From: Bradyrhizobium sp. CCGB12
GTDB taxonomy: Bacteria; Pseudomonadota; Alphaproteobacteria; Rhizobiales; Xanthobacteraceae
Length of the DNA stretch: 64,000 nt
NCBI RefSeq assembly: GCF_024199845.1
Contig: NZ_JANADO010000001.1
Span: 6,386,001 to 6,450,000, forward strand
Direction of reading: 5' to 3'
Position 1 is the first letter of the stretch. Each line of letters begins with the position of its first letter. Under the pieces are notes generated by a model. The model was given only the letters and a program-made list of their open reading frames with translations. It had not been told where the DNA came from and searched no databases. The position numbers were made by a program, and so were the translations under genes. Shown one piece after another: positions 22,882-44,267 of the stretch.

Positions 22882-22910
22882 TTGAAGTTATATTTGATAA
22901 TTGTTATGGA
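22882..22910 (+). promoter_or_regulatory. Candidate sigma-70 promoter of the second Liv operon
   Basis: TTGAAG (22882-22887), 17-base spacer, TATGGA (22905-22910). It reads towards the livH gene at 23010 and overlaps the inverted repeat described separately, so repressor binding there would occlude RNA polymerase. Confidence 0.55.
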
Positions 22911-22923
22911 CCATATCAAATAT
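22890..22923. promoter_or_regulatory. Inverted repeat, candidate MarR operator
   Basis: Arms ATATTTGATA (22890-22899) and TATCAAATAT (22914-22923) are perfect 10-bp inverse complements 14 bases apart. Inside is a second half-symmetric dyad GTTAT-GGACC-ATATC (22903-22917) that resembles dyads at 34207 and 39071. It lies between marR and the Liv operon. Confidence 0.7.
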
Positions 22924-23009
22924 CGTCAGCGTTTTTCAATGGCTGTGAGCGGACCGTCCACCGCAATCGGGAGGACCGGTCCCTGATCTTTTAGGGGGAG
23001 CGTCCGGTC

Positions 23010-24050
23010 TTGAATACCACCATCATGCTGTTCCTGGTGCAGGACGGCATCACCAATGGCGCGATCTATGCGCTGCTCGGCCTTGCGCTGGTGCTGGTGT
23101 TCGCCGTCACCCGGGTCATCCTCATTCCCCAGGGCGAATTCGTCACCTATGGCGCGCTGACCTATGCCTCTCTGGCCGCGGGCCAGATGCCGGGCACGGC
23201 AAAGCTGGCGCTTGCCCTCGGTGTCGGCGCCTTCGCCTTCGACCTGTTCGTGGCGCGCAAGGCGCTGCACGGGCGGCTGATCCTGCGCAGCTTCGTCACC
23301 AACATCGTGCTGCCGGCCATCGTGCTGGCGCTGACCCTGTACTTCGCCGCGCAGAAGCCGCCGGTTGCCATCTGCATCGCGCTGTCGCTGGTGATCGTGG
23401 CGATGATCGGTCTGTATCTCTACCGCATCGCGTTCCAGCCGCTGGCGCACACCTCCGTGCTGGTGCTGCTGATCGCATCGGTGGGCGTCCATCTCGCGCT
23501 GCAGGGACTTGGCCTGCTGTTCTTCGGTGCCGAAGGCCAGCGCGGACCGGCCGTGCTGTCCGGCGCCTTTACCGCCGGCGCGCTGCGCTTCACCGGCCAG
23601 AGCATCACCGTCTACGCCATCACCATCGCCTTCATCGTCGCCCTCTGGCTGTTCTTCGGGCTGACGCTCTACGGCAAGGCGCTGCGCGCGACCGCCGTAA
23701 ACCGGTTAGGGGCGCGGCTGGCCGGCATCCGCACCACACTGTCAGGGCAGATCGCCTTCCTGCTGGCGTCCGTGATCGGCGCGCTGTCGGGTATCCTGAT
23801 CGTGCCGATCACGACGCTCTATTACGACTCGGGCTTCCTGATCGGCCTGAAGGGCTTTGTCGCCGCGATCATCGGCGGCCTCGTCAGCTATCCCCTCACC
23901 GCCGTCGCAGCACTGGTCGTCGGCATCGTCGAGGCGTTCTCGTCCTTCTATGCCTCCAACTACAAGGAGGTGATCGTCTTCATGCTGCTGATCCCCGTGC
24001 TGCTGCTGCGCTCGCTCGCCGCGCCCGCGGTCGAGGAAGAGAAGGACTGA
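23010..24050 (+). CDS. Branched-chain-type ABC permease (LivH) of the orphan operon
   Basis: A 346-residue inner-membrane permease with about nine hydrophobic segments. The start is TTG 23010, with GGGGGAG nine bases upstream; an ATG at 23025 is possible. LivH traits include QDGITNGAIYALLGLALVLVFAVTRVILIPQGEFV at the N-terminus (no more than the GAIYALLGLA core is conserved), the EAA loop ALRATAVNRLGARLAGI near 230, and GLVSYPLTAVAALVVGIVEAF near 290. It is first in an operon regulated from the MarR promoter region. No binding protein gene follows. Confidence 0.9.
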   Translation: MNTTIMLFLVQDGITNGAIYALLGLALVLVFAVTRVILIPQGEFVTYGALTYASLAAGQMPGTAKLALALGVGAFAFDLFVARKALHGRLILRSFVTNIVLPAIVLALTLYFAAQKPPVAICIALSLVIVAMIGLYLYRIAFQPLAHTSVLVLLIASVGVHLALQGLGLLFFGAEGQRGPAVLSGAFTAGALRFTGQSITVYAITIAFIVALWLFFGLTLYGKALRATAVNRLGARLAGIRTTLSGQIAFLLASVIGALSGILIVPITTLYYDSGFLIGLKGFVAAIIGGLVSYPLTAVAALVVGIVEAFSSFYASNYKEVIVFMLLIPVLLLRSLAAPAVEEEKD

Positions 24051-24057
24051 CGCCAAG

Positions 24058-25827
24058 ATGCAGAGCCGGCTTCCCATCCTCGTCTTCGCGCTCGTCATGG
24101 CGGCGATCCCGTTCGTCCCGGGCATGCCTCCGTTCTGGATCGTGCTGCTCGACAATATCGGCCTTGCCGCCCTCGTCGCCATGGGCCTCGTGCTGCTCAC
24201 CGGCGTCGGCGGCCTGACCTCCTTCGGGCAGGCAGCCTTCGTCGGCTTCGGCGCCTATACCACCGCGGTGCTGTCGACGGCCTACGGCCTGTCGCCGTGG
24301 CTGACGCTGCCGTTGTCGCTCGTCGTCAGCGGATCGCTGGCGGTGCTGCTCGGCCTGATCACGGTCCGCCTGTCCGGCCACTATCTGCCGCTCGGCACGC
24401 TCGCCTGGGGGTTAGGGCTGTTCTACCTCTTCAGCAAGCTGGAATTCTTAGGGAGAAACGACGGCATCTCGGCAATCCCGCCGCTGTCGATCGGCACGTT
24501 CAAGATGCTCTCGCCCGGCTCGATCTACTACGCGATCTGGGTCGCCGTGATCCTGTCGGCCCTGCTCACGATGAACCTGCTGGACTCCCGCACGGGCCGC
24601 GCCATCCGCGCGCTGCGCCGCGGGCACGTCGCGGCCGAGGCGTTCGGCGTGCACACGCCGCGCGCAAAGCTGCTGGTGTTCATCCATGCCGCCGTGCTCG
24701 CCGGCCTCTCCGGCTGGCTCTACGCCCATCTGCAGCGCGCGGTGAACCCGACGCCGTTCGGCGCGCATATGGGCATCGAATATCTCTTCATCGCGGTGGT
24801 CGGCGGCGCCGGCTATGTCTGGGGCGGCGTGCTGGGCGCAGCCATCGTCGTGATCCTGAAAGAGGTGCTGCAGAGCTATCTGCCGCTGATCCTGCCCGGC
24901 TCCGGCCAGGTCGAGACCATCGTGTTCGGCATCATGCTGGTGGCGCTGCTGCAACTCGCGCCCGGCGGCCTCTGGCCGTGGCTGATGTCGTTCCTGCCGG
25001 AGCGCACCGGTGGAAGGAAGCCGGACACCTCGCTGAAGCTGGAGCATCGCCCCCGCGCGCCCGGCGAGGCCAGCATCCTGCTTCAGGTCGACAAGGCACG
25101 AAAGCAGTTCGGCGGCGTGGTCGCGGTCAACAACGTCTCTTTCGACGTCCAGGCCCGCGAGATCGTCGCGCTGATCGGCCCGAACGGCGCCGGCAAGAGC
25201 ACGACGTTCAACCTGATCACCGGTGTGCTGTCGGCGACTTCAGGCTCGATCTCGGTGCTCGGCAAGAAGGTCGACAAAGCGCCGCCGCAGGAGATCGTCA
25301 AGCTCGGCATCTCCCGCACCTTCCAGCACGTCAAGCTGGTGCCTGATATGACCGTGCTGGAGAACGTCGCGATCGGCGCGCATCTGCGCGGCCATTCGGG
25401 GCCGATCTCCTCGATGCTGCGGCTCGACCGCGCTGACGAGGCCAAGCTGCTCGCGGAAGCCGCGCGCCAGATCGAGCGCGTCGGACTTGCCGAGCAGATG
25501 CACCAGCTCGCAGGCAGCCTTTCGCTCGGCCAGCAGCGCATCGTCGAGATCGCCCGCGCGCTCTGCGTCGATCCGATGCTACTGTTGCTCGACGAGCCGG
25601 CCGCGGGCCTGCGCCACATGGAAAAGCAGCAGCTGGCGGCGCTGCTGCGCGAGTTGCGCGACGGCGGCATGAGCGTGCTGCTGGTCGAGCACGACATGGG
25701 CTTCGTCATGAACCTCGCCGACCGCATCGTGGTGCTCGATTTCGGCACCAAGATCGCGGAGGGCACCCCCGCCACGATCAAGACCAATCCCGAAGTCATC
25801 AAGGCCTATCTCGGAGTGGCGGCATGA
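24058..25827 (+). CDS. LivM-LivG fusion: permease joined to ATPase
   Basis: A 589-residue single chain. Residues 1-320 are a LivM-type permease ([24 protein letters not shown] near 43, EAA loop [16 protein letters not shown] near 183). A hydrophilic linker of about 20 residues leads to a complete LivG ATPase from about 340: Walker [11 protein letters not shown] near 376, [12 protein letters not shown], signature [15 protein letters not shown], Walker [13 protein letters not shown], and the LivG end VIKAYLG. Such fusions are known in Liv-type transporters. The stop overlaps the next ATPase start as ATGA. Confidence 0.93.
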
Positions 25828-26555
25828 GCGCGCTGTTGTCCGTCACCGACGCGCATGTCGCCTACGGCAAGGTCGAGGCCGTGCGTTCGGTCTCGCTCGA
25901 GGTCGGGGCCAACCAGATTGTCACCATCGTCGGCGCCAACGGCGCCGGCAAGACCACGCTGCTTTCGGCCATCATGGGCATTCTGCCGCTGAAGGGCCGC
26001 GTCACCTTCGCCGGCCAGGATCTCGCCCGACTCGACATCGAGGACCGCGTCGCGATGGGCCTCGGCCTCGTTCCCGAGCACCGCGAATTGTTCGTGACCA
26101 TGAACGTCGAGGACAATCTCGAGCTGGGCGCCTTCCGGATCGAGCGAAGCAAGGCGAAATCCTCGATGGAGCGGGTCTACACGCTGTTCCCGCGGCTGAA
26201 GGAGCGTCGCAAGCAGCTCGCCGGCACGCTCTCCGGCGGCGAGCAGCAGATGCTCGCGATGGGCCGCGCGCTGATGGGCGAGCCGAAGCTCCTGATGCTG
26301 GATGAGCCGAGCCTCGGCCTCGCCCCGATCATCGTCGCCGACATCTTCCGCATCGTCACCGAGCTGCGCGCCAGCGGCGTCTCCGTGCTACTGGTCGAGC
26401 AAAACGCACAGGCCGCGCTGAAGATCGCGGACCAGGCCTATGTGATGGAGCTCGGCGAGTTCGTGCTCAGCGGCAAGGCCAGCGACATCGCGGCGAACGA
26501 GCGCGTGGCGGCGAGCTATCTCGGCTTCCAGCACGAAGGTGAGAGTGTGATCTGA
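25824..26555 (+). CDS. Branched-chain-type ABC transporter ATPase (LivF)
   Basis: A 243-residue ATPase completing the permease/ATPase set. Walker A VGANGAGKTTLLSA, GLGLVPEHRELF (the LivF-type loop, with EHREL in place of QGRG), signature LSGGEQQMLAMGRAL and Walker B LLMLDEPSLGLAP are present. The start overlaps the fusion gene by four bases. The next gene is on the opposite strand, so the operon ends here without a periplasmic binding protein. Confidence 0.93.
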   Translation: MSALLSVTDAHVAYGKVEAVRSVSLEVGANQIVTIVGANGAGKTTLLSAIMGILPLKGRVTFAGQDLARLDIEDRVAMGLGLVPEHRELFVTMNVEDNLELGAFRIERSKAKSSMERVYTLFPRLKERRKQLAGTLSGGEQQMLAMGRALMGEPKLLMLDEPSLGLAPIIVADIFRIVTELRASGVSVLLVEQNAQAALKIADQAYVMELGEFVLSGKASDIAANERVAASYLGFQHEGESVI

Positions 26556-26599
26556 TTCGCTTACTCTCCCCTCCAGGGGAGGGCAAGCGAGCAAAAGCT

Positions 26600-28165
26600 T
26601 CATTCCCGGGGAAGTCCTGCCTTGCGCAAACCGTCGGCGATCCGTTCTCGCTGCATGAGGCACGTTGGATGATCCGTCGGCGAACTCTGGTGAAATTGAG
26701 CCACGCTGAAATTCGGGTCGAGAGCGAGCCCCGCCCGCACCGATGTCCGTGCGTCTTCGATGCGACCGAGATGGGCGAACGCTGCAGCGAGAAAGAAGTG
26801 GACGAACGGCGCAATATTCCGATTGGTCTCGATTGACCGCCTGAACCACTGAACGGCAGCTTCGTCGGCCCCGAGATATGATTGCGCGACGCCCGCCGTA
26901 TTCAACCAGGAGGAGGCCTTCTGATCGCGGGGAGAGAGTCGGAACGCTTCCGCGATGTGACCTTCGGTCTCCTCTGCGCGACCGAGATTACACTTCCCAA
27001 GTCCAATCCAGGCATGGGCGGTGGCCAGGTTCCGATCCAGCGTCAACGCTCGCTCGCATTCGGCAATGCCCTCGACGGCCCGTTTTGTGAAAATCTGGAC
27101 GACACCCATCAGGCAATGGGCCCGCGCGTGACTGGGCGTGCGAGCAATGATCCCGACCAAGAAAGTCTCGACCAACCGCAGAGGTTCTCTGCGGTCGATC
27201 AGCATGGACGTTGACCGCATTGTATCGACATCGGCCATGCCAACCATGGCCTCGATATTCCCGGCGTCCAGGCGAAGGGCCTGTTCGAAGAACGGGCGCG
27301 CCTGCGACAGGCTTGCCGGGTCCGTTCCGCGATTGAGATAGGCCATGCCCTGAAAATACAGGTCCATCGAATCCGGATGCGGCGCCCGCGCGGCACGCCG
27401 TGCCTCCGCCGTGACGAGCTCCGTTCCGAGTTGATTGGCAAGACGGGCGCCAATCTCGTCCTGCATGTCGAAGAGGTCGGCGATCTGCTTGTCGAAACGT
27501 TCTGCCCATACATGGTTGCCGGTTTCGGCATCGATGAGCTGGGCGTTGATGCGCATCCTGGTTTCGACCCGCTGCACCGAGCCCTCGAGCACGTAGCGAA
27601 CGCCGAGTTCGCGCCCGACCTGCTTCAGATCGACATGCCGTCCCCTGTAAGCGAAGGCCGTGTTGCGGCCGATCACGAAGACGCCGGCCAGCCGAGATAG
27701 ATCGGTCGTCAGGCTCTCGGTCACGCCATCGACGAAATAATCTTGCGCGGGGTCCGGGCTCAGATTGGCAAAGGGCAGAACGACAAGCGACGGCTTACCT
27801 GACATGAGCCCGGATGAGCCACTGACGTTGATCGTCGCCGGCGCCTCGCACACCAACGCGATGAAACGAACACCCTTGCGCGGAAACGTCTTGATGAGGC
27901 GCTGCTCGTCTCCGGAGTCGCCGATTGCCTTCCGCGCCGCGTTGAGGCACGTGGTCAGGGCGACGTCCGAGATGGCCCGGCCCTGCCAGATGACGTCAAC
28001 GAGATTTTCCTTGGTGATGACGCGCTCGCGATTGCAGATCAGATAGGCGATGAGATCGAACACCTGCGGCGCGATGGAAACGACCCCCGCCCCGCGGCAT
28101 AGCTCGCGTCGCTCGGTATCGAGTGAATAATCGTCAAAGATATAGCGCAAGTCACTTCCCCGCAC
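26600..28165 (-). CDS. CadC-like regulator: OmpR-type winged helix plus TPR region
   Basis: A 521-residue cytoplasmic-looking regulator. Residues 1-105 form an OmpR/PhoB-type DNA-binding domain (YSLDTERRELCRGAG, APQVFDLIAYLICNRERVITKENL, FPRKGVRFIA). No clear transmembrane span follows, unlike true CadC. Residues 125-265 match the TolB-like/FlgO-like region common in these proteins (LVVLPFANLSPDPAQDYFVDG, RVETRMRINAQLIDAETGNHVWAERFD). From about 270 a series of TPR-like helices runs to the end. Start GTG 28165 is tentative; a TTG at 28150 has GGGGAAG before it. It is divergent from the tctC-like gene and may control it. Confidence 0.82.
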   Translation of the reverse strand: MRGSDLRYIFDDYSLDTERRELCRGAGVVSIAPQVFDLIAYLICNRERVITKENLVDVIWQGRAISDVALTTCLNAARKAIGDSGDEQRLIKTFPRKGVRFIALVCEAPATINVSGSSGLMSGKPSLVVLPFANLSPDPAQDYFVDGVTESLTTDLSRLAGVFVIGRNTAFAYRGRHVDLKQVGRELGVRYVLEGSVQRVETRMRINAQLIDAETGNHVWAERFDKQIADLFDMQDEIGARLANQLGTELVTAEARRAARAPHPDSMDLYFQGMAYLNRGTDPASLSQARPFFEQALRLDAGNIEAMVGMADVDTMRSTSMLIDRREPLRLVETFLVGIIARTPSHARAHCLMGVVQIFTKRAVEGIAECERALTLDRNLATAHAWIGLGKCNLGRAEETEGHIAEAFRLSPRDQKASSWLNTAGVAQSYLGADEAAVQWFRRSIETNRNIAPFVHFFLAAAFAHLGRIEDARTSVRAGLALDPNFSVAQFHQSSPTDHPTCLMQRERIADGLRKAGLPRE

Positions 28166-28313
28166 GCGCGGTCGATCGTTGAAATCCGCCGACCGGAGAA
28201 TAAGCCGCCGCTAAGGAAAAAGTAAGCTGGCGACCAAGCCTGTTGGCCCCCGGGCATGATAAACCAGGGGTAGAACGCGCGCGAAAGCGCTGGGCCGCGC
28301 AGGGAGACAGCTC

Positions 28314-29291
28314 ATGATCACGCGCCGCGACATATTGACCGCGTCGGCCGGTCTCGCGATCTGCGCTACATCTGGCGTGCCGCCGATGCTCGCGCAGCCG
28401 CTCGCAAGAACCGCGCACATCCTGACGACCACCGCGCCGGGGCTGCTCGACGCGCTGGCGCGGCTCCTGGCTGAACAGATGGGCGACTATGCGTCGACCA
28501 TCGTGGTCGAGAGCCGGCCCGGAGCAGCAGGGCGTATCGCGGTAGAGGCGGTGAAGAGCGCCAACGCCGACGGATCGGTCATGTTGTTCGGGCCGCTCGG
28601 CTTCATGGTATTGTTCCCGCACATCTACAAGACGCTGAGATACCAGCCACGCGATTTCACACCGGTGTCGGCGGTAGCGTCGGCCCCTGCCTTTCTGACC
28701 GTAGGACCGAAGGTACCCGCTGAGGTCAGGACGGTTGCCGACTTTGTCGTCTGGTGTCGGGCCAATCCGCAGCTCGCCACCTATGGCACGCCCGGCGTCG
28801 GAACCACGCTGCATTTTCTCGGCATGATGCTGGGACGAAGCGCCGGTATCGAATTTCTTCACGTACCCTATCAGGGTGTTGGAGCGATTCACGATCTGAC
28901 CAAGGGCGTGATCGCGGCCGCCCTGATGCCGATCGGCAGCTCGCTTGGACTGGTTCAATCCGGCGATCTCCGTGCGCTGGCCACAACCGGGCCCCGCCGC
29001 TGCCAGTTCGTTCCGGCAGTGCCGACGGTGAGGGAAGCGGGATACCCGGCGCTCGAGGATCTCACATGGCTGGGCTTCTTCGTTCCAGCGAAGACGCCGC
29101 CCTCGATCGTCGCCAAGCTCAATGCCGCGATCCAGGCGGCGCAGTCCACCAACGAGGTCAAGGCCGGCATGGAAAAGCTGGCCGTCGATCCGCACGCAAT
29201 CGCCATGGGAGATTTCGCCCAGTTGATCGCATCCGAATCCCACCGGTGGAAGGCGATCGTGCAGGAAACGGGGTTCGTTCCCACCGACTGA
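28314..29291 (+). CDS. TctC/Bug-family tripartite tricarboxylate transporter receptor
   Basis: A 325-residue periplasmic receptor of the Bug family. N-terminal MITRRDILTASAG is a twin-arginine-like signal followed by a hydrophobic stretch and a PPMLAQ end. Family features: ESRPGAAGRIAVEAVKSANADG near residue 65, the YQPRDFTPVSAVA block near 107, and GTPGVGTTLHFLG near 150. No TctA or TctB permease genes are in the window, so it is an orphan receptor, which is common for Bug proteins. AGGGAGA precedes the start. The methyltransferase gene follows after 18 bases. Confidence 0.9.
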   Translation: MITRRDILTASAGLAICATSGVPPMLAQPLARTAHILTTTAPGLLDALARLLAEQMGDYASTIVVESRPGAAGRIAVEAVKSANADGSVMLFGPLGFMVLFPHIYKTLRYQPRDFTPVSAVASAPAFLTVGPKVPAEVRTVADFVVWCRANPQLATYGTPGVGTTLHFLGMMLGRSAGIEFLHVPYQGVGAIHDLTKGVIAAALMPIGSSLGLVQSGDLRALATTGPRRCQFVPAVPTVREAGYPALEDLTWLGFFVPAKTPPSIVAKLNAAIQAAQSTNEVKAGMEKLAVDPHAIAMGDFAQLIASESHRWKAIVQETGFVPTD

Positions 29292-29309
29292 ACAGACAGA
29301 GGGAAACAT

Positions 29310-30326
29310 ATGAGCTGGCCAGCATCCGTGCACGATCTCGTGCAATCCCATCGCATCACCGCGGTGATCTATGCTGCAGCGAAGCTCGATCTCGCCGAGG
29401 CTATCGGTGATGACGAGAAGCCGGTGGCCGAACTCGCCCGGCTCGTGTCCGCCGATGAAGGTGCGCTGCGCAGACTGCTTATCGGCATAGCAACGCTTGG
29501 GCTCTGCAAGCAGGTTGACGGCGACCGGTTCGCCATGACCGAGCTCGGCCGGCAGCTCGACGCGGCGGCCGAGCCATCCTTCAAGGACTGGGTTCTCTTC
29601 GAGGGCGAGATGCTCGCGCAATCCTGGAGCGGACTGGTGGATTCGGTTCGTACCGGAAGAACCGCGACGCAGCTGCGCGGCGACGGTGCAGACCGGTATG
29701 CCGCGACAGGCCAGGCGACTGAATGGACGCGCCGGTTCAACGCCGCGATGGTCAATCTCACGCGGACCATGGTTCCAAAGATCGTGGCGGCCCATGATTT
29801 TGCGGCCGCACGCGTCGTGATGGATGTCGGCGGCGGCATCGGCGAATTGATCGGCGGCGTGCTCCAGCGCGTCTCGCATCTCGAGGGCATCACCTTCGAT
29901 CTTGCGCGATGCGAGGCGGACGCGCACGCACATTTCGATCGGCTTGGTCTCGCCTCCCGCTGCAGGTTCGTCGCCGGCAGTTTCTTCGAGAAGATTCCCG
30001 GCGGCGTCGACACCATCCTGATGAAGAGCATCCTTCACAATTGGGACGACAACCGCTGCGCCCTCATTCTGCGCAACTGCCGGGACGCGCTGGCGCCCGG
30101 CGGAACGCTGATTGTCATCGAGAGGATCTTGCCCGAGCTCGCTACGACGGATCCCGAGCACCGCTCCTGCGTCATGAGCGACCTCAACATGCTGCGCGGC
30201 CCCGGCGGACGCGAGCGCACGTACTCCGAGTATCGCAGGCTTGTTATTCCGGCAGGCTTCATTTTCACGGGCATCACCGGCATCGGCCCTTTCAGCCTTG
30301 TCGAATTCAAGAGAGCTCGGCGTTGA
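29310..30326 (+). CDS. SAM-dependent O-methyltransferase (Methyltransf_2 family)
   Basis: A 338-residue methyltransferase of the plant-like/antibiotic O-methyltransferase family. The N-terminal 90 residues form a winged-helix dimerisation domain (RITAVIYAAAKLDLAEAIGD, LLIGIATLGL). The SAM site is VVMDVGGGIGEL near residue 168. MKSILHNWDDNRC near 238 holds the proposed catalytic histidine, and the end RERTYSEYRRLVIPAGF is typical. It is probably cotranscribed with the TctC-like receptor. The acceptor is unknown; small hydroxylated aromatics are usual for the family. Confidence 0.85.
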   Translation: MSWPASVHDLVQSHRITAVIYAAAKLDLAEAIGDDEKPVAELARLVSADEGALRRLLIGIATLGLCKQVDGDRFAMTELGRQLDAAAEPSFKDWVLFEGEMLAQSWSGLVDSVRTGRTATQLRGDGADRYAATGQATEWTRRFNAAMVNLTRTMVPKIVAAHDFAAARVVMDVGGGIGELIGGVLQRVSHLEGITFDLARCEADAHAHFDRLGLASRCRFVAGSFFEKIPGGVDTILMKSILHNWDDNRCALILRNCRDALAPGGTLIVIERILPELATTDPEHRSCVMSDLNMLRGPGGRERTYSEYRRLVIPAGFIFTGITGIGPFSLVEFKRARR

Positions 30327-30370
30327 GGGTTTCTTCTGTCTTTTGGGAGAAGACGAGCGCCAGCGGCGCG

Positions 30371-31003
30371 TTATGACGCTCCTCTCGCCTTCTCCCCCTT
30401 CAGCGCCGCAACCTCCGCCTCGAGCTCTGCGATCTTCGCATCCCTCTCCGCAAGCGCAGCCGCCACATCCGCCGCGTCGAACTTCTGCGGAATGTGCTGC
30501 GGGCAGTTGGTGTCCCACGCCGCGATCTTGAACAGGATCACCTGCTCGGGGCGGGCACGATATCCCCTGGGCATCAGCGACGTCGTCAGCGCCTCGTCGT
30601 CCTCGACCACGCGCGCCTCGCCCCAGATCTTCACCCGGCGGCGATGGGCGTAGTCCATTACGAAGATATAGGCCCTGGCATTCTCCGAGAGGTTGCCCTG
30701 GGTGATGAACTGCTGGTTGCCGGCATAGTCGGCGAAGGCGAGCGTCTGCTTGTCCAGCACCTTGAGAAAACCTTTTGGCCCACCGCGGTGCTGGATGTAG
30801 GGCTGGCCGTCCCCCGAAGCGGTCGCGAAATAGAAGCTATTGGCATCACCAAGGAAGGTCGCGAGGTTGTCGTCGACCTCGGTGCGCCAGCCGCGCTGCT
30901 CGCTGCGGGCATAGGCCTCGCGCGAGCCCTTGCGCGCCTGAATCGACTTCACCGCCGGCGAGAAGGCGACGTCGCTGGCATAGGTATCGGCTGCTGTCGT
31001 CAT
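30371..31003 (-). CDS. Pyridoxamine 5'-phosphate oxidase-like flavoprotein
   Basis: A 210-residue split-barrel protein of the PNPOx-like family. Start ATG 31003 has AGGAG eight bases upstream. The N-terminal part contains VKSIQARKGSREAYAR, then DNLATFLGDANSFYFATASGDGQPYIQHRGGPKGFL split between strands of the barrel, typical of FMN-binding relatives. The last 35 residues form a charged coiled-coil (AALAERDAKIAELEAEVAALKGE). The substrate is not predictable. It is divergent from a LysR regulator that may control it. Confidence 0.82.
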   Translation of the reverse strand: MTTAADTYASDVAFSPAVKSIQARKGSREAYARSEQRGWRTEVDDNLATFLGDANSFYFATASGDGQPYIQHRGGPKGFLKVLDKQTLAFADYAGNQQFITQGNLSENARAYIFVMDYAHRRRVKIWGEARVVEDDEALTTSLMPRGYRARPEQVILFKIAAWDTNCPQHIPQKFDAADVAAALAERDAKIAELEAEVAALKGEKARGAS

Positions 31004-31088
31004 CGGAACGTCTCCTGAAATTCCGGCGCATTCCTACGTCTTTCACTCCCCAAGATGGGCCTGCCGGATGCTAAAACAATCTCGCCAC

Positions 31089-31116: not shown

Positions 31117-31124
31117 ATAATGGC

Positions 31125-32969: not shown

Positions 32970-35421
<2,452 letters not shown>

Positions 35422-35507: not shown

Positions 35508-35652
35508 CCCCCTCTCCCCGCTTGCGGGGAGAGGGTTGGGGTGAGGGGGAGTCTCCGCGGGGACGGTGACAGTCGGACTCGCGGAGAGTCCCCCTCACCC
35601 GGAATCCGCGCTTACGCGCGCATTCCGGCCTCTCCCCGCAGGCGGGGAGAGG
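35508..35652. repeat. Intergenic palindromic repeat, family A copy 3
   Basis: Ends with hairpins CTCTCCCCGCTTGCGGGGAGAG and CTCTCCCCGCAGGCGGGGAGAG in shortened form (CTCCCCG...CGGGGAG). Inner arms GGGGGAGTCTCCGCG and CGCGGAGAGTCCCCC are nearly inverse. It splits dctP from dctQ within one TRAP operon. Confidence 0.82.
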
Positions 35653-35682
35653 CGAAGGACCGACGCAGGATCGAGAGCGAGA

Positions 35683-36219
35683 ATGACATCACAGGACGAG
35701 ACACTTCCCACAAAGCGCGGCTGGATGGACCGCTTCATCGATGCGATCGAATGGATCGCGGCCGGCTTCGTCGGCATCGTCGCGCTCGACATTTTCCTGT
35801 CGGTGCTGCTCCGCAACACGCTGAACTATTCGATCCCCGACAGTTTCGACATCGGCCGCATGCTGCTCGGCATCCTGATTTTCTGGGGCATCGCGGCGAC
35901 CTCCTATCGCGGCACCCACATCACGGTCGACCTCGTCTGGGGCAATGTCGGACCGCGCTACCAGCGCTGGATCGACGTGTTCGCAACTTTGGTGCTGCTG
36001 TTCGTCGTCACCGTGCAGACCTGGACGCTGTTCGACAAGGTGCGCGGCACCTACAACGACAACGTCCAGACCTTCGACATGCACATGCCGACCTGGCCGT
36101 TCTTCGCGATCGCCTGGATCGGCGACGTCTCGGCCGTGCTGCTGATCGCGATCCGCACCTACCGGCTGATCTTCCATCCCGAAGAGATGCATGACCCCAA
36201 GCTGAAGGCGACCGAGTAA
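35683..36219 (+). CDS. dctQ: TRAP transporter small permease DctQ-type
   Basis: A 178-residue inner-membrane protein with four hydrophobic segments, the normal DctQ topology. ATG 35683 (MTSQDETLPTKRG) was chosen because the frame upstream runs through repeat DNA. GILIFWGIAATSYRGTHITVDLVW near residue 63-86 is the conserved core segment. It is followed two bases later by dctM. Confidence 0.9.
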   Translation: MTSQDETLPTKRGWMDRFIDAIEWIAAGFVGIVALDIFLSVLLRNTLNYSIPDSFDIGRMLLGILIFWGIAATSYRGTHITVDLVWGNVGPRYQRWIDVFATLVLLFVVTVQTWTLFDKVRGTYNDNVQTFDMHMPTWPFFAIAWIGDVSAVLLIAIRTYRLIFHPEEMHDPKLKATE

Positions 36220-36221
36220 TC

Positions 36222-37541
36222 ATGAGCACCGATGCCGTCGCCGTACTCGGCTTTGTTTCCCTCTTCGTCCTGATGCTGCTGCGCGTCCCCGTCGGCATGG
36301 CCATGGGCCTCGTCGGCGTCTCCGGCTTCGCCTATCTCGTCAATGGGACGGCGGCGCTGAAGCTGGTCGGGCAGACCTCGATGCGCACGGTCACCGACTA
36401 CACGTTCGGCGTCATCCCGATGTTCCTGCTGATGGGCGCCTTCGTCAGCAATAGCGGCATGAGCCGCGAGCTGTTCCGCGCCGCCAACGGCTTTGTCGGC
36501 CATCTGCGCGGCGGGCTCGGCATCGCCACCGTCGGCGCCTGCGGCGGCTTTGCCGCGATCTGCGGCTCCTCGGTCGCGACCGCCGCGACCTTCTCCGCCG
36601 TCGCCTATCCCGAGATGCGCCGCTTCGGCTATCCGCAATCCTTTGCCACCGGCGTGATCGCCGCCGGCGGCACGCTCGGCGCCATGCTGCCGCCCTCCAC
36701 CGTGCTCGCGGTCTATGGCATCATCACCGAGCAGGACATCGGAAAACTCTTCATCGCCGGCATCATTCCGGGCCTTTTGGCGATGACCATGTACATGATC
36801 ACGATCGGCCTGATCGGCTATTTCCGCCCCGATTTCCTGCCCAAGGGCAAGGTGCTGCCGTGGCGCGAGCGCATTGCCGGGCTGAAGGACATCTGGGCGC
36901 CGGTGCTGCTGTTCGTCTTCGTCATCGGCGGGCTCTACGGCCTGCCCTTCCTGCCGCGCTTCACGCCGACGGAAGCCGGCGGCGTCGGCGCCACCGGCGC
37001 CTTCATCATCGGCGTGCTGACGGGCCGGCTCGACCGCGAGAAGGTGCTGGCCTCGCTGCTTCAGGCAACGCGCACGGCGGCCGCGGTGTTCACCGTGCTG
37101 ATCGGCGCCCTGATCTTCGGCTATTTCCTGACGGTGACGCAGACGCCGCAGAAGGTCACGGAACTCCTGACCGGGCTCGGCCTCGGTCCCTATGGCGTGC
37201 TGGCGCTGATCATGGTGATGTATCTCGTGCTCGGCTGCCTGATGGACGCCATGGCGATGATCATCCTGACCGTGCCGATCATCTTCCCCGTGATCATGCA
37301 TCTCGGCTTCGACCCGATCTGGTTCGGCGTCATCATCGTGATGACCGTCGAGCTCGGCCTGATCCATCCGCCGGTCGGCATGAACGTCTTCGTCATCAAG
37401 AGCGTGGTGAAGGACGTCTCCTTCTCCACCATCTTCAAGGGCGTCATTCCGTTCGTGGCGACCGATCTCGTGCGGCTCTTGATCCTGATCGCCTTCCCGC
37501 TGCTGGCGACCTGGCTGCCGACGCGGATGATGGCGCACTAG
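36222..37541 (+). CDS. dctM: TRAP transporter large permease DctM-type
   Basis: A 439-residue sodium-coupled permease with about twelve hydrophobic segments. Family landmarks: VSGFAYLVNG near 28, IPMFLLMGAFVSNSG near 65, AICGSSVATAATFSAVAYPEM near 107, GGTLGAMLPPSTVLAVYG near 146, and VELGLIHPPVGMNVFVI near 380. It completes the DctPQM importer driven by the sodium gradient. Confidence 0.94.
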   Translation: MSTDAVAVLGFVSLFVLMLLRVPVGMAMGLVGVSGFAYLVNGTAALKLVGQTSMRTVTDYTFGVIPMFLLMGAFVSNSGMSRELFRAANGFVGHLRGGLGIATVGACGGFAAICGSSVATAATFSAVAYPEMRRFGYPQSFATGVIAAGGTLGAMLPPSTVLAVYGIITEQDIGKLFIAGIIPGLLAMTMYMITIGLIGYFRPDFLPKGKVLPWRERIAGLKDIWAPVLLFVFVIGGLYGLPFLPRFTPTEAGGVGATGAFIIGVLTGRLDREKVLASLLQATRTAAAVFTVLIGALIFGYFLTVTQTPQKVTELLTGLGLGPYGVLALIMVMYLVLGCLMDAMAMIILTVPIIFPVIMHLGFDPIWFGVIIVMTVELGLIHPPVGMNVFVIKSVVKDVSFSTIFKGVIPFVATDLVRLLILIAFPLLATWLPTRMMAH

Positions 37542-37578
37542 CCGTGATACGATTGAATGCTGCGCGGTGCGGTCGCTT

Positions 37579-37716: not shown

Positions 37717-37754
37717 AAGGGCAGCGGCGCACTGCGATACATTAGAGGTGACTG

Positions 37755-38213
37755 ATGACCCCCACGCTCGAAACCAAATACGTCTTCACCATCACCGCTC
37801 ATATCGGCGACGTCGTTACCGCCGGCGAGACCGGGATTGGCGTCCGCCGCATCATTCCGATCATCGGCGGCGAGGTGACGGGCGCGGTCACCGGCAAGGT
37901 GCTTCCCTTCGGCGCCGATTTCCAGACCATCCGCCCCAACGAGCTGATCGATCTCGAAGCCAGATACGCCTTCGAGACCGACGATGGCGCGACCGTCTAT
38001 GTGGAGAACAAGGGCATGCGCTTCGGCCCGGTCGAGCTGCTGCAGAAGCTCAAGCGCGGCGAGGCTGTCGATCCGAAGCTGATCTATTTCCGCACCGTGC
38101 CGAAATTCGAGACCGGGCATGAAAAGTATCGCTGGCTGATGGACCACATCTTCGTGGGGTCAGCCGCGAGGCATGCGGACCGCGTGGTGATCGACGTGCA
38201 CCAGGTGATGTGA
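37755..38213 (+). CDS. DUF3237-family protein
   Basis: A 152-residue protein matching DUF3237 (UPF0311): TLETKYVFTITAHIGDVVTAG at the N-terminus, RRIIPIIGGEVTGAVTGKVLPFGADFQ near 32-58 and IYFRTVPKFETG near 115. The family is small beta-barrel proteins of unknown function found near catabolic genes. ATG 37755 follows GAGGTG. It lies in the same direction as the TRAP genes but is separated by a repeat. A role with the imported acid is possible but unproven. Confidence 0.85.
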   Translation: MTPTLETKYVFTITAHIGDVVTAGETGIGVRRIIPIIGGEVTGAVTGKVLPFGADFQTIRPNELIDLEARYAFETDDGATVYVENKGMRFGPVELLQKLKRGEAVDPKLIYFRTVPKFETGHEKYRWLMDHIFVGSAARHADRVVIDVHQVM

Positions 38214-38292
38214 GGATTCTGTCTTTGCCCGGGGACGGACCTGGTTCAGGATGTGATCTGCACAAAGTTGTGTAGACCACGGGAGTCCCACC

Positions 38293-38973: not shown

Positions 38974-39052
38974 TGACAGCGAGCGGTTACTCCCGTTCCT
39001 CGGGGAGCCGAGGCGAGCGCAGCCGCCCTGCCGCCTGGGAGGGCTCCCCGCC

Positions 39053-39085
39053 TTGACTCCCGCCAAAATCGTTATACAACATAAC
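39053..39085 (+). promoter_or_regulatory. Promoter with overlapping GTTAT-N5-ATAAC operator
   Basis: TTGACT (39053-39058), 16-base spacer, TACAAC (39075-39080). A perfect dyad GTTAT-ACAAC-ATAAC (39071-39085) covers the -10. Binding there would block the crotonase/feruloyl-CoA synthase operon that starts at 39105. Related dyads lie at 22903 and 34207. Confidence 0.68.
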
Positions 39086-39104
39086 TATTCTGACAAGGAC
39101 GCAA

Positions 39105-39914
39105 ATGACACAGGGAAACGCCGAGACCCCCAACGCGGGCGCCTCCGGGCTTTTGAGGATCGAGCGGGCGGACCGGGTTCTGACCGTGGGTCTTAACCGG
39201 CCGGCCAAGCGCAATGCGCTCAATGACGGCATCATCCTGGAAATCGGCGAGTGTTTTGCATCCCTGCCCGAGGACATCGGCGCGGTCGTCATCCACGGGA
39301 TCGGCGACCATTTCTCCAGTGGTCTCGACCTGTCGGAATTGACCGAACATGACGCGACCGGCGGCCTTCTCCATTCCCAGATGTGGCACCGGGTGTTCGA
39401 CCGCATCCAGTACAGCCGCGTGCCCGTCATCGCTGCGCTCAAGGGCGCCGTGATCGGCGGCGGCCTCGAACTTGCCTGCGCTGCGCATATTCGCGTCGCC
39501 GAGCCCTCGACCTATTTCGCGCTCCCGGAGGGCCAGCGCGGCATCTTCGTCGGCGGCGGCGGCTCGGTGCGGCTGCCGCGGCTGATCGGCGTCGCCAGGA
39601 TGATGGACATGATGCTGACCGGCCGCGTCTATAGCGCGACCGAAGGCGCCTCCTACGGCTTTGCGCAATATGTGACGGAAGCCGGCAACGGCCTCGGCAA
39701 GGCGCTGGAGCTCGCCACCAAGGTCGCCGCCAACGCGCCGCTGACGAATTTCGCCGTGCTTCAGGCGCTGCCGATGATCGCGGAGGCCAATCCGCAGACC
39801 GGCCTGCTGATGGAATCGCTGATGGCGACGGTCGCGCAGAGCGACAAGGAAGCCAAGCGCAGGATCCGCGAATTCCTCGAACACAAGACCGCAAAGGTGA
39901 AGCCGAAGTCATGA
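39105..39914 (+). CDS. Enoyl-CoA hydratase/crotonase of the hydroxycinnamate operon (CouA-like)
   Basis: A 269-residue crotonase. GAVIGGGLELACAAHIRVAE near residue 110 carries the oxyanion loop, and FALPEGQRGIFVGGGGSVRLPR near 140 carries the second conserved acidic site. It would hydrate the double bond of a hydroxycinnamoyl-CoA; some family members also cleave it to an aldehyde plus acetyl-CoA. Which applies cannot be read from these motifs alone. Its stop overlaps the feruloyl-CoA synthase start, a pairing like CouA-CouB of Rhodopseudomonas. First gene of the operon after the dyad-bearing promoter. Confidence 0.85.
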   Translation: MTQGNAETPNAGASGLLRIERADRVLTVGLNRPAKRNALNDGIILEIGECFASLPEDIGAVVIHGIGDHFSSGLDLSELTEHDATGGLLHSQMWHRVFDRIQYSRVPVIAALKGAVIGGGLELACAAHIRVAEPSTYFALPEGQRGIFVGGGGSVRLPRLIGVARMMDMMLTGRVYSATEGASYGFAQYVTEAGNGLGKALELATKVAANAPLTNFAVLQALPMIAEANPQTGLLMESLMATVAQSDKEAKRRIREFLEHKTAKVKPKS

Positions 39915-41794
39915 GCGCGCAGCCGTCCTCTTCCAGCATGGAACGCGGCGCGAGCACTTTCCCGCTGCGGCCCATCTCGTTCGGCGATCCCGTCGTCGAC
40001 ATCGAACGCCGCGACGATGGCACGATCTACCTGCGGCCAAAGCAGCCGCTCGGCGACTATCCCGTCCGCATCACCGACCGCCTGCATCATTGGGCGAACA
40101 CGACGCCCGACCGCGTCTTCATGGCCGAGCGCGAGGGCGGCCGCGGCTGGCGCAAGATCACCTACGCCGAGCTTCTCACCGCGAGCCGGCACATTGCTTC
40201 AAGCCTGATTGCGCGCGGCCTGTCGGCAGAGCGGCCGGTCGTCATCCTCTCCGGCAATTCGATCGACCACGCCTTGCTCGCCTTCGGCGCGTACTATGCC
40301 GGCATCCCGTTCTGCCCGGTGTCGCCGGCCTATTCACTGGTGTCGAAGGATTACGGCAAGCTCTCTTACCTGATGAAGCTGCTGACGCCCGGCCTCGTCT
40401 TCGCGGAGGATGGCGACAGGTTCGCCGATGCACTGGCCGCCAACGTCTCGCTCGGCACCGAGATCGCCGCGTCCTATGGCCAGGTGCCGGGCCGCGACGT
40501 CACCTTGCTCGCCGACCTCATGGCGACACCGATCCGGGGCGACCTCGACGCGGTGCACGAACAGATCGGCCCCGACACCATCGCAAAATTTCTGCTGACC
40601 TCGGGCTCGACCGGCAATCCCAAGGCCGTCATCAACACCCAGCGCATGATCTGCGCCAACCAGGTGATGCTGCGCGAGACGCTTGCCTTCCTCAAGGACG
40701 AGCCGCCTGTGATCATCGACTGGCTGCCCTGGAATCACACCTTTGGCGGCAACCACAATATCGGGCTGACGCTCTACAATGGCGGCTCGATGTATCTGGA
40801 CGCCGGCAAGCCGATGCCCGGCGGCATCGAGGAGACCGTGCGCAATCTCCAGGAGATTTCGCCGACGGTCTATTTCAACGTGCCCAAGGGCTACGAATCG
40901 CTGCTGCCCTATCTGCGCGACGACCAGGGCCTGCGCGCAAAGTTCTTCGACCGGCTGCATGCGATGTTCTTCTCGGGTGCGGCGCTGTCGCCGTTCGTCT
41001 GGGACAGCCTCGACGAGCTCGCAGTAAAGGAAAAGGGCTATCGGGTGCCGATGCTGACCGGTCTCGGCGCGACCGAGACCGCGCCGTTCTTCATGTCGGT
41101 CAATCCGCGCACCAGTCGCTCGGGCCATGTCGGCCTGCCCGTTTCGGGCAATGACGCAAAACTGGTGCCGAACAACGGCAAGATGGAGGTGCGCGCCAAA
41201 GGCCCAAACGTGATGCCCGGCTACTGGCGCCAGGCGGACATCACCGCAAAATCCTTCGACGAGGAGGGTTTTTACAAGATGGGCGACGCGCTCAAGCCGG
41301 CCGACCCCGACGATCTGAACGCCGGCTTCGATTTCGACGGCCGCGTCAGCGAGGATTTCAAGCTCGCCAGCGGCACCTGGGTCAGCGTCGGCCCCTTGCG
41401 CGCGCGCTTCGTTGCGGCCTGCGCACCGCTGGTGCGCGACGTCGTCATCGCCGGCATCAACCGCGACGAGATCTCCGCGATCGTGCTGCTCGATCTCGAC
41501 GGCTGCCGGCTGATCAACCCGACACTGCCGGCCGACAACCTCACCGTCACCGCCCGCGACCGACTGGTGCGCGAGGCGTTCCGTGAGCGGCTGACGGGCT
41601 TCCTCAGCCAAGCCACCGGTTCCTCGACGCGGGTCACGCGCGCGATCCTGCTGGATACGCCGCTCTCGATCGACAAGGGCGAAGTCACCGACAAGGGCTC
41701 GATCAATCAGCGCGCGGTGCTCGAGCATCGCGGCGAGCTGATCGAAGAGCTCTACGCTGCCAATCCATCGGACCGTGTGATATCGGTCGCGTAA
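39911..41794 (+). CDS. fcs: Feruloyl-CoA synthase-type ligase
   Basis: A 627-residue ANL ligase of the feruloyl-CoA synthase family, longer than typical acyl-CoA ligases as expected. It activates p-coumarate, ferulate or caffeate with ATP and CoA. Motifs: [17 protein letters not shown] near residue 225 (phosphate loop), [22 protein letters not shown] near 272, and the [10 protein letters not shown] block near 388. [22 protein letters not shown] near 475-497 is specific to this subfamily, and the C-terminal lysine lies in [18 protein letters not shown]. Start overlaps the crotonase stop by four bases. Confidence 0.92.
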
Positions 41795-41819
41795 GAAACC
41801 ATCGCTACAGGAGAACGCC

Positions 41820-42581
41820 ATGTTGTTGAAGGATCAGGCAGCCATCGTCACCGGCGGTGCATCGGGGCTCGGCGCGGCAACCGCGCGAAAGCTGGCGGCG
41901 CAGGGCGCAAAAGTCGCGGTGTGCGACCTCAATGCCAAGCTTGCGGAAACCGTTGCGGCCGAGATCAAGGGCGTTGCCGTGACCTGCGACGTGTCCGATG
42001 CCGCCTCGGCTGAGGCCGCGATTGCACAGGCGACCAAGGCTGTTGGCGCGCCGCGCGTGCTGGTCAATTGTGCCGGCATCGGCGTTGCCAAGCGCGTCGT
42101 CGGCCGCGACGGCCCGATGGCGCTCGCCGATTTCGACAAGGTGATCAAGGTCAACCTGATCGGCACCTTCAACATGCTGCGCCTCGCCGCCGCCGAGATG
42201 TCCAAGCTCGAGCCGCAGGCGACCGGCGAGCGCGGCGTCATCATCAACACCGCCTCCGTTGCCGCCTATGACGGCCAGATCGGGCAGTCGGCCTATTCGG
42301 CCTCGAAGGGCGGCATCGTCGGCATGACCTTGCCGATCGCACGCGAGCTGGCGCAGTTCGGCGTCCGCGTGCTGACGATCGCGCCCGGCCTGTTCCTGAC
42401 GCCGCTGCTCGCCAACCTGCCGCAGGAAGCCCAGGACTCGCTCGCCGCCGCGATCCCCTTCCCACGCCGGCTCGGCAACGCCGACGAATTCGCCGCGCTC
42501 GCGCTGCACATGGTCGAGAATCCGTACCTGAACGGCGAAGTGGTGCGCCTTGACGGCTCGCTGCGCATGGCGCCGAAGTAA
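41820..42581 (+). CDS. SDR-type 3-hydroxyacyl-CoA dehydrogenase (HSD10-like)
   Basis: A 253-residue classical [15 protein letters not shown] near 11-22 is the NAD loop, NCAG near 84, and the catalytic Ser-Tyr-Lys is in [22 protein letters not shown] near 145-165. The [23 protein letters not shown] run is close to type II 3-hydroxyacyl-CoA dehydrogenases. AGGAG precedes the start. In this operon it would oxidise the 3-hydroxy intermediate formed by the crotonase to the 3-keto ester, which argues for a beta-oxidative route. Confidence 0.88.
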
Positions 42582-42605
42582 GATCAGCAGAGCAAGGCGC
42601 GACGC

Positions 42606-43025
42606 ATGTTCGTGAACCGGCGCGACGTCCAGATCCAGTGGGGCGACTGCGACCCCGCCAACATCGTCTACTACCCGCGCTATTTCGCGATGTTCGACGA
42701 TTCGACGTCGACCCTGTTCGAGGTCGCCGGGTTTTCCAAGCAGGACCTGGTCCGCAAATACGGCCTGGTGGGGATTCCCATGGTCGACACGCGGGCCAAG
42801 TTCTACATCCCCTCGACCTATGGCGACTGGATCACCATCGAAACCAGCATCGAGAGCATCAAGCGCTCGAGCTTCGAGGTGAAGCACAACGTCTTCAAGG
42901 GCGAGGCGCTGGCGATCGAGGGGTTCGAGACCCGCGTCCTGGTCGGCCGCGATCCAGACAACCCCGACAAGCTGAAATCGGCACCGTTTCCGGCGGAAAT
43001 GGCCGCCAAATTCACGGGGAGTTAG
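42606..43025 (+). CDS. 4HBT-type acyl-CoA thioesterase (4-hydroxybenzoyl-CoA-like)
   Basis: A 139-residue hotdog protein with the 4-hydroxybenzoyl-CoA thioesterase signature QWGDCDPANIVYYPRYFAMFD near 11-31, including the catalytic aspartate of the DPA motif. It would release 4-hydroxybenzoate (or vanillate) and CoA at the end of the hydroxycinnamate route, feeding PobA. It lies 24 bases after the SDR. Substrate assignment is from motif and context. Confidence 0.87.
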   Translation: MFVNRRDVQIQWGDCDPANIVYYPRYFAMFDDSTSTLFEVAGFSKQDLVRKYGLVGIPMVDTRAKFYIPSTYGDWITIETSIESIKRSSFEVKHNVFKGEALAIEGFETRVLVGRDPDNPDKLKSAPFPAEMAAKFTGS

Positions 43026-43115
43026 GTCCGGAGCTAAATCGCCGCATCACCAAAAGAGGGGGCTGAATTACCCCCCGATTTCTGCTTTCAAGGAAACACG
43101 TCAAGGGAGGAATAG

Positions 43116-44267
43116 ATGAAACGCTTTTACCTGACCGCCGCCATCACAGCGGCCGCGCTGGCGCTGCCGGCATTGCCTGCGCTGGCCCAGACCAGCGAGA
43201 TCACCATCGGCATCACCACCACCACGACCGGTCCGGGCGCGGCCCTCGGCATTCCCGAGCGCAACGCGCTGGAATTCGTGCCGAAGGAAATCGGCGGCGT
43301 GCCACTGAAGGTGATCGTGCTCGACGACGGCGGCGATCCCACCACCGCCACCACCAACGCCCGCCGCTTCGTGACCGAGTCCAAGGCCGACATCATCATG
43401 GGCTCGGCGTTGACGCCGCCGACGATCGCGGTCTCCAACGTCGCCAACGAGGCCGGCATTCCGCATTTCGGCCTGGCGCCCTTCCCGATCACCCCGGAAC
43501 GCATGAAGTGGTCGGTGGCGATGCCGCAGCCGATCCCGATCGTGGGCAAGGTGCTGTACGACCACATGAAGTCCAAGGGCGTGAAGACCCTCGGCTATAT
43601 CGGCTATTCCGATTCCTACGGCGACCTCTGGTTCAACGATCTGAAGGCGCAGGCCGTGCCGATGGGCATGACCATCGTCGACGAGGAGCGCTTCGCCCGC
43701 CCCGACACCTCGGTGACCGGACAGGTGCTGAAGCTCGTCGCCGCCAATCCCGATGCGATCCTGGTCGGCGCCTCCGGCACCGCGGCCGCGCTGCCGCAGA
43801 CCGAGCTGCGCGAGCGCGGCTATCAGGGCCTGATCTACCAGACCCATGGCGCGGCCAGCATGGACTTCATCCGCATCGCCGGCAAAGCCGCCGAGGGCGT
43901 GCTGATGGCCTCCGGCCCCGTGATGGACCCCGAGGACCAGCCGGACGAAGCCGCCACCAAGAAGCCGGGTCTCGCGCTCAACGCCGCGTATGAGGCAAAG
44001 TACGGCCCGAACAGCCGCAGCCAGTTCGCCGGCCATTCCTACGACGCCTTTGAGATCCTCAAGCGCATCATCCCGACCGCGCTGAAGACGGCAAAACCCG
44101 GCACGCCGGAATTCCGCGAAGCGATCCGCCAGGCGCTACTGACGGAGAAGGAGCTTGCGGCGAGCCAGGGCGTCTACAACTTCACCGAAAAGGACCGCTA
44201 CGGCCTCGACGAGCGCTCGCGCATCCTGCTCACGGTGAAGAACGGCAAGTACTCGCTGGTGAAGTAG
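43116..44267 (+). CDS. Orphan Liv-type periplasmic binding protein, aromatic acid suspected
   Basis: A 383-residue binding protein with signal peptide ending LPALAQ. AAGGGAGG precedes the ATG. The mature start TSEITIGITTTTTGPGAALG and the IIMGSALTPPTIAVSNVANEAG core near residue 90 follow the Peripla_BP_6 fold. It lies 90 bases after the thioesterase gene and is followed by a strong terminator, so it closes the hydroxycinnamate operon. No permease or ATPase gene is adjacent. The orphan Liv operon at 23-26.5 kb is the natural partner. Confidence 0.9.
   Translation: MKRFYLTAAITAAALALPALPALAQTSEITIGITTTTTGPGAALGIPERNALEFVPKEIGGVPLKVIVLDDGGDPTTATTNARRFVTESKADIIMGSALTPPTIAVSNVANEAGIPHFGLAPFPITPERMKWSVAMPQPIPIVGKVLYDHMKSKGVKTLGYIGYSDSYGDLWFNDLKAQAVPMGMTIVDEERFARPDTSVTGQVLKLVAANPDAILVGASGTAAALPQTELRERGYQGLIYQTHGAASMDFIRIAGKAAEGVLMASGPVMDPEDQPDEAATKKPGLALNAAYEAKYGPNSRSQFAGHSYDAFEILKRIIPTALKTAKPGTPEFREAIRQALLTEKELAASQGVYNFTEKDRYGLDERSRILLTVKNGKYSLVK

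Follow-up and report, generated by a model that had tools for sequence, protein, structure and literature searches.

In Rhodopseudomonas palustris, the hydratase and ligase genes couAB and the genes of both transporters, couPSTU and tarPQM, are reported to be under the control of the regulator CouR, which responds to p-coumaroyl-CoA (PMC3610893, PMC10458429), with tarPQM named as CouR-regulated in PMC3610893. The present study concerns a 64,000-nucleotide stretch of Bradyrhizobium sp. CCGB12 (contig NZ_JANADO010000001.1 of assembly GCF_024199845.1, positions 6,386,001 to 6,450,000), referred to throughout as the window, in which related genes are found beside a MarR-type regulator gene. A preliminary description had proposed that a 15-bp dyad links three loci of the window into a CouR-type hydroxycinnamate regulon. 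This proposal was supported by the orthology of the regulator, by dyads at the same three promoters in relatives and by the way in which strict dyads track CouR among genomes. Judged from sequence, the dyad is very probably the CouR operator for couR-livHMGF, the couAB operon, pobA and/or tarPQM, and two unlinked targets, pcaHG and an amidohydrolase gene.

The side-chain route in R. palustris has been viewed in two ways. A non-beta-oxidative aldehyde route was favoured from expression data (PMC3610893), and a review calls the route beta-oxidative (PMC10458429). For Rhodococcus jostii RHA1, the amidohydrolase CouO is reported for the beta-ketoacyl-CoA hydrolysis step (PMC4737184).

A CouR ortholog and dyads in the window and in relatives

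The product of the MarR gene beside the Liv operon is an ortholog of R. palustris CouR, since phmmer aligned it over its full length with PDB entry 6c28, which is named CouR (E 1.1e-67; 72% identity). We take this entry to be the R. palustris protein, and one of the three CouR entries to be a DNA complex. A protein of one Rhodopseudomonas-type genome (G199) is 99% identical to the solved CouR. In the stretch QTEIA-TLGILRPNFVAMLD-LE, presumably the recognition-helix region given the MarR fold, two positions differ from R. palustris CouR. The window protein did not reach the Saro_0803 family regulator model NF053777 (90.2 bits against a curated cutoff of 200). As is characteristic of the R. palustris-type CouR, its gene is divergent from the cou ABC transporter and near couAB and tarPQM, and a conserved inverted repeat occurs at the target promoters.

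The three dyads, starting at 22903, 34207 and 39071 (Table 1), lie exactly where they had been reported, and their proposed overlap with -10 elements is plausible by sequence. TACAAC (39075-39080) falls within the dyad of the crotonase/ligase operon, TATAAT forms the end of the 34207 dyad on the pobA strand, and the TATGGA at 22905 of a putative livH promoter (TTGAAG at 22882, N17) falls within the dyad of the Liv operon. The couR-livH promoter contains two dyads rather than the one described, as GTTATATTTGATAAT occurs at 22887-22901, 16 bp from the 22903 site. The loose core GTTAT-N5-ATAAC with up to two mismatches was matched eight times in the window against 2.65 expected, a number reached in none of 100 shuffles.

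Sixteen cluster loci were taken from CouR-bearing family genomes, three of them (L126-L128) from Rhodopseudomonas-type genomes (group g28; Bradyrhizobium is g1). In these three the genes form a single run in the order pobA, tarPQM, DUF3237, couA, couB, thioesterase, couP, livFMH and couR. The couR-livH gap carries a dyad with at most one mismatch in all 16 loci, and a perfect-core dyad precedes couA in all 12 loci with a couA ortholog (the couA match of L137 and L138 being a 33% paralog only). A dyad also lies between pobA and tarP in each of the 11 loci with both genes; none was found at tarP of L141, which has no pobA in the stretch examined. Given the same genes and dyads in the R. palustris-type loci, the "three loci" of the window represent the known cou cluster. 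Though described as physically separate, they are not independent but a single cluster, inverted and split here. Compared with loci such as L130 and L132, the window has the block from lysR to couP in the opposite orientation, and 4.5 kb with a CadC-like gene and an unassigned open reading frame (ORF) lie between this block and livF; L140 is arranged as the window is, but its gap measures some 1 kb.

A wider set of 80 loci found through the MarR protein (79 titled Bradyrhizobium and one titled Frankia) showed at least one dyad, with at most one mismatch, within 250 bp 5' of couR in every case. Two dyads were found in 66 of the 80, invariably at a spacing of 16 bp, and a weaker second copy at this spacing was recognized by inspection in the couR-livH gap of the g28 loci. 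With the g28 couA dyad at its centre, a 31-bp segment has a GC content of 32%, and the R. palustris CouR site employed in a yeast sensor is likewise 31 bp long with 32% GC (PMC9594313); this match, which is one of length and GC, is suggestive only.

The assignment of the 34207 dyad to pobA left out the TRAP operon tarPQM on the opposite side. The dyad may serve only one of the two, with either pobA or tarPQM as a bystander. Service of tarPQM is favoured by the reported CouR control of this operon and by the R. palustris-type loci and L129/L130, where some 50 bp separate the dyad from tarP. In the window, however, pobA is the nearer gene (67 bp, against 183 bp for tarP), the TATAAT of the dyad reads on the pobA strand, and the side facing tarP has lost its TTGCAATG flank. 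Service of one side only is possible, but we rather doubt it.

Specificity of the dyad and its unlinked candidate targets

The loose core allowing one mismatch, which had been put forward for a scan of the full genome, showed no genome-wide enrichment. There were 31 sites in the 9.43 Mb of the source genome against 68 in a reversed control, so this core is not specific alone, and it was rejected as a genome-wide predictor. Four of the 31 sites fall in the 64-kb window (binomial P 5.8e-5), a value biased because the window had been flagged for these very sites. Specificity requires the inner bases R and Y; with these and conservation across genomes taken into account, an unenriched core of ten fixed bases became specific.

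A 21-bp matrix (consensus ATTGTTATATAATATAACAAT) was built from 36 sites, or 60 distinct ones with reverse complements, of 11 of the 16 cluster loci, with L134 and the four loci closest to the source genome (L137-L140) omitted. This held-out matrix ranked the four dyads of the window first, with 32.2, 28.9, 27.7 and 20.6 bits, and gave 3.7 to the next position, compared with a maximum of 9.4 bits over 20 mononucleotide shuffles. Among the 27 loose sites outside the window, high scores were obtained at L143 (29.8 bits), pcaH (28.7), the amidohydrolase gene (25.3) and L151 (19.2; a TetR/P450 gap), and the remaining 23 scored at most 18.5. The other perfect-core match of the genome, at C1:5916928, lies inside an ORF and scored 11.9 bits, and was taken as a chance occurrence.

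The strict pattern RTTATRNNNYATAAY (RTTATR-N3-YATAAY) has four exact matches in the 9.43 Mb, namely 34207 and 39071 of the window, C1:6846032 and C1:8286725, all located 5' of pathway genes. As the right half of the dyad contains TATAAT at pobA, pcaH and the amidohydrolase gene of the source genome, the dyads might be regarded as AT-rich -10 elements, TATAAT with its mirror, which resemble each other as promoters do and are not operators. Such an origin is highly improbable in view of the scarcity of strict matches, the two-armed symmetry that persists across genera despite varying spacer bases, and the fall of counts to control level in genomes without CouR.

The first unlinked strict site (C1:6846032) lies 54 bp 5' of pcaH, within a run of pcaF, an intradiol dioxygenase gene and pcaHG situated 0.4 Mb from the window cluster. 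The identity of pcaHG was confirmed by TIGR02422 (381.9 bits; cutoff 296.4) and TIGR02423 (269.5 bits; cutoff 126.25). The second (C1:8286725) is 5' of a gene for a PF04909 amidohydrolase (204.5 bits), 1.9 Mb away. Among the 120 homologs of this protein listed from 8000 scored, one with 78% identity (P0056) is named 4-hydroxyphenyl-beta-ketoacyl-CoA hydrolase and the others have general names such as amidohydrolase or TIM-barrel hydrolase. An NCBIfam search gave no match at E <=1e-10, and the nearest solved structure is the uncharacterised protein 3irs (E 1.7e-20). The unlinked amidohydrolase may thus be described as beta-ketoacyl-CoA-hydrolase-like, with a putative role in that step. The source genome also has a second copy, 89% identical (L248; G000:C1:751327-752178), with no dyad within 160 bp upstream.

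The amidohydrolase site was found in all 14 g28 genomes and all 27 Bradyrhizobium genomes of the family sample, 40-64 bp from the start used (25 of the 27 were read, and G024 and G273 were judged from coordinates). It was also present in other groups (g20, 1/1; g25, 3/3; g40, 2/2; g43, 1/3 loci read), the g25 and g40 loci having been selected after their matches were already seen. No strict site occurs 5' of 13 distant amidohydrolase homologs whose genomes have no CouR ortholog reaching 200 bits; one 1-mismatch site was seen among them, and several of these genomes have a weaker MarR homolog. The pcaH site occurs in all 30 of the closest Bradyrhizobium loci, at 51-55 bp, and in 12 of 20 divergent ones, which were picked by rank with sites disregarded.

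The relation between strict sites and CouR was surveyed in 296 family genomes, 92 with a CouR ortholog (at least 200 bits) and 204 without. Strict sites averaged 3.11 per genome in the former (reversed control 0.91) and 0.52 in the latter (control 0.52). Two or more were found in 81 of the 92 and 22 of the 204, while two or more reversed-control sites were found in 19 and 17, respectively. A close amidohydrolase ortholog is encoded by 83 of the 92 and by none of the 204. In a further 22 Bradyrhizobium genomes, the sole one lacking CouR (4.3 Mb) has no strict site. It was also observed that eight g24 genomes (G023, G063, G085, G104, G121, G137, G152 and G166) have at least two strict dyads each and no close CouR ortholog; the best CouR homolog in six of them is 43-46% identical, and the operator may there be read by a divergent CouR.

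CouR might still be limited to the cluster promoters, with a different MarR paralog reading the pcaH and amidohydrolase dyads through a similar operator. The source genome does encode a MarR paralog 36% identical to CouR beside the 29.8-bit site, so related repressors may share such sites. At E <=1e-50, however, this paralog is present in only five of 198 family genomes, whereas the amidohydrolase site is far more widespread; the paralog also has a longer near-palindrome as its site, and the number of strict sites follows CouR. The division of labour between two repressors is therefore improbable. At the paralog locus (L143/L268; G000:C1:408.3-411.3 kb) the regulator gene is divergent from genes for a Liv-type binding protein and a P450, and the near-palindrome AATAGTTATATTTTATAGCTATT is identical in all five paralog-bearing genomes. 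The P450 is close to CYP199A2/A4 (2fr7, which we take to be CYP199A2, E 1.6e-123; 4dnz, E 1.6e-122). With its own palindrome and its own MarR, this locus was not counted as a CouR target.

Proposed regulation and gene content of the cluster

In the regulation proposed here, a CouR dimer would bind sites of the type GTTATR-N3-YATAAC that overlap the -10 or spacer region, and would thereby repress couR-livHMGF, the couAB-SDR-thioesterase-couP operon, and pobA and/or tarPQM, as well as the unlinked pcaHG and amidohydrolase genes. The position of the dyads over putative promoter elements fits steric repression relieved by p-coumaroyl-CoA, which is what has been reported of R. palustris CouR (PMC3610893, PMC10458429). 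Once p-coumarate or ferulate enters, CouB would form the CoA thioester, which would free CouR from the DNA, so that the genes of import, side-chain degradation and ring opening are switched on jointly. We infer both the ligand and the binding of the window CouR to each site.

Several points weigh against this proposal. The loose core is not enriched in the genome, as noted above, and the strict pattern was set after the list of loose matches, with the pcaH and amidohydrolase sites in it, had been viewed. The co-occurrence counts are raw, with genome relatedness not factored in. The amidohydrolase site was found in none of the 14 g26 and two g6 genomes read, though CouR is present there, and is also missing in G043 and G114. 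Eight of the 20 divergent Bradyrhizobium pcaH loci lack a strict site; one of these has a 1-mismatch site, and three are second copies, the other copy of the same genome carrying the site (G336, G357 and G358, the copies of G358 being judged from coordinates). Outside Bradyrhizobium none of the six pcaH loci has the site, and the two g6 genomes examined yielded no pcaH ortholog. The main biological doubt about the extension is that, with pobA and pcaHG shut off until p-coumaroyl-CoA forms, cells would seem unable to grow on 4-hydroxybenzoate or protocatechuate alone without another promoter or ligand.

Strict matches off the known targets also have to be considered. Seventeen CouR-bearing genomes hold 62 strict matches, of which 42 were read and stand at promoters of the named targets, and nine unread ones are at most 17 kb from couR. 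The other 11 lie outside known targets, so that the pattern, though good, is imperfect. The six of these that were read form no aromatic set and were kept as leads or noise. At L174 no ORF passed the filter, whereas L183 is near a carB-like gene, L185 near an integrase gene and L186 within an ABC-transporter ORF. The five unread ones are G281 2208746, G289 2323778, G050 5520129, G093 C2:373832 and G155 5463536. In the remaining two of the six, from other Bradyrhizobium, a strict dyad stands just 3' of a fumarase-type gene (L173:2931 and L177:3044). Strict sites off known targets also recur, namely GTTATGATCCATAAT in G330, G369, G361 and G357 and ATTATGCTTCATAAC in three of these.

According to family models, the cluster region encodes glycerate kinase, MarR, LivH, LivM-LivG, LivF, a LysR regulator, PobA and the TRAP proteins DctP/Q/M, followed by a DUF3237 protein, a crotonase, a PRK12582-type acyl-CoA ligase, a short-chain dehydrogenase/reductase (SDR), a thioesterase and a Liv-type binding protein, with several matches below equivalog cutoffs (Table 1). 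The DUF3237 gene stands between tarM and couA in all 12 fetched cluster loci holding both. Between livF and lysR (26600-31003) were found a gene for a CadC-like regulator and a 788-aa ORF that is possibly not a gene, for which Pfam and NCBIfam gave no match; this gap is far shorter in the close relative L140.

Table 1. Features of the cou cluster and its putative operators in the window; identity percentages of genes refer to the R. palustris-type (g28) cluster.
Feature	Positions	Strand	Basis
couR, MarR-family repressor, R. palustris CouR ortholog	22309..22830	-	phmmer to PDB 6c28; 72% identity
Putative operator site 1, couR-livH promoter	22887..22901	.	GTTATATTTGATAAT; matrix 20.6 bits
Putative operator site 2, couR-livH promoter	22903..22917	.	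GTTATGGACCATATC; matrix 28.9 bits
livH-type permease, cou ABC transporter	23010..24050	+	LivH/UrtB models, below equivalog cutoffs; 79%
Fused LivM-LivG permease/ATPase	24058..25827	+	LivG model, below cutoff; 78%
LivF ATPase	25824..26555	+	LivF model, below cutoff; 81%
pobA, 4-hydroxybenzoate 3-monooxygenase, TTG start	32970..34139	-	TIGR02360, 706 bits (cutoff 539)
Putative operator between pobA and tarPQM	34207..34221	.	ATTATATCATATAAC; TATAAT on pobA strand; matrix 27.7 bits
tarP-like TRAP solute-binding protein	34405..35421	+	NF037995, above cutoff; 60% to R. palustris-type tarP
tarQ-like TRAP small permease, start codon uncertain	35566..36219	+	Weak model match, below cutoff; 61%
tarM-like TRAP large permease	36222..37541	+	TIGR00786, above cutoff; 78%
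DUF3237 protein, kept within cluster	37755..38213	+	PF11578
Putative couA promoter	39053..39080	+	TTGACT 39053-39058, N16, TACAAC 39075-39080; -10 in dyad; read from sequence
Putative operator of couAB operon	39071..39085	.	GTTATACAACATAAC, perfect core; matrix 32.2 bits
couA-like enoyl-CoA hydratase (crotonase)	39105..39914	+	NF006013, above cutoff; 75%
couB-like p-coumarate/ferulate-CoA ligase	39911..41794	+	PRK12582 type, 748 bits, below model cutoff 777; 72%
SDR dehydrogenase, candidate for 3-hydroxyacyl-CoA dehydrogenase step	41820..42581	+	SDR models, best below cutoff
YbgC/FadM-type acyl-CoA thioesterase	42606..43025	+	TIGR00051, below cutoff; 76%
couP-like periplasmic binding protein	43116..44267	+	81% to gene at g28 couP position; weak Liv model match

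Comparison with known systems

Two more distant systems show a similar logic. HcaR of Agrobacterium fabrum is likewise reported as a MarR repressor of CoA-dependent hydroxycinnamate genes, in a pathway whose beta-keto intermediate is cleaved to an aromatic acid (PMC7797058, PMC10458429). There, however, the genes are described as lying in a single compact island, where the vanillate branch has a GntR regulator of its own, and the cleavage enzyme is described as a beta-keto-thiolase. The CouR of R. jostii RHA1 is also reported as a MarR repressor of hydroxycinnamate genes with p-coumaroyl-CoA as its ligand and an inverted repeat with 5-bp spacing, in a pathway ending in the amidohydrolase CouO (PMC4737184). 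The CouR proteins of R. jostii and R. palustris are nevertheless given as only about 25% (PMC4737184) or 36% (PMC9594313) identical, and the R. jostii box, cATTGA-N5-TCAATg, is read by a protein whose Arg36 and Arg38 are reported not to be conserved in R. palustris CouR (PMC4737184). By inspection, with no dedicated scan, this box was not recognized in the four window sites, which are of the GTTAT/ATAAC type.

The closest match is to the R. palustris regulon (couAB, couPSTU, tarPQM and couR), which shares with the window an orthologous regulator, transporters, hydratase and ligase, and which has dyads of this kind at the three corresponding promoters. The window cluster differs in being inverted and split by 4.5 kb, and in having an SDR gene after couAB, of which the g28 clusters showed no counterpart. 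Bradyrhizobium furthermore adds pcaHG, of which no pcaH ortholog was found in the four g28 genomes examined.

Taken jointly, we lean towards a CouR that is released by a CoA thioester and gates the pathway from uptake to pcaHG in Bradyrhizobium, together with an unlinked retro-Claisen amidohydrolase in both Bradyrhizobium and R. palustris. The operator in this way names a candidate side-chain cleavage enzyme in both, and so bears on the choice between the two p-coumarate routes. A CouR-type site before the beta-ketoacyl-CoA-hydrolase-like gene in all 14 g28 genomes favours the beta-oxidative one; if the joint interpretation is true, R. palustris would shorten the side chain by beta-oxidative deacetylation and not by the aldehyde route favoured earlier. 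It also suggests that ring cleavage in Bradyrhizobium is wired to a plant-phenolic CoA signal. Protocatechuate 3,4-dioxygenase activity is reported to vary over time in soybean bacteroids (PMC6320959), and the proposed link of CouR with pcaHG may therefore matter in nodules. Among the titles and abstract openings surveyed, a set outside which the primary R. palustris CouR papers fall, none tied CouR to pcaHG or to any amidohydrolase in Bradyrhizobium. The core regulon of the window is thus the already known R. palustris-type CouR system, whereas its extension to pcaHG in Bradyrhizobium and to the unlinked hydrolase in both genera is apparently new.

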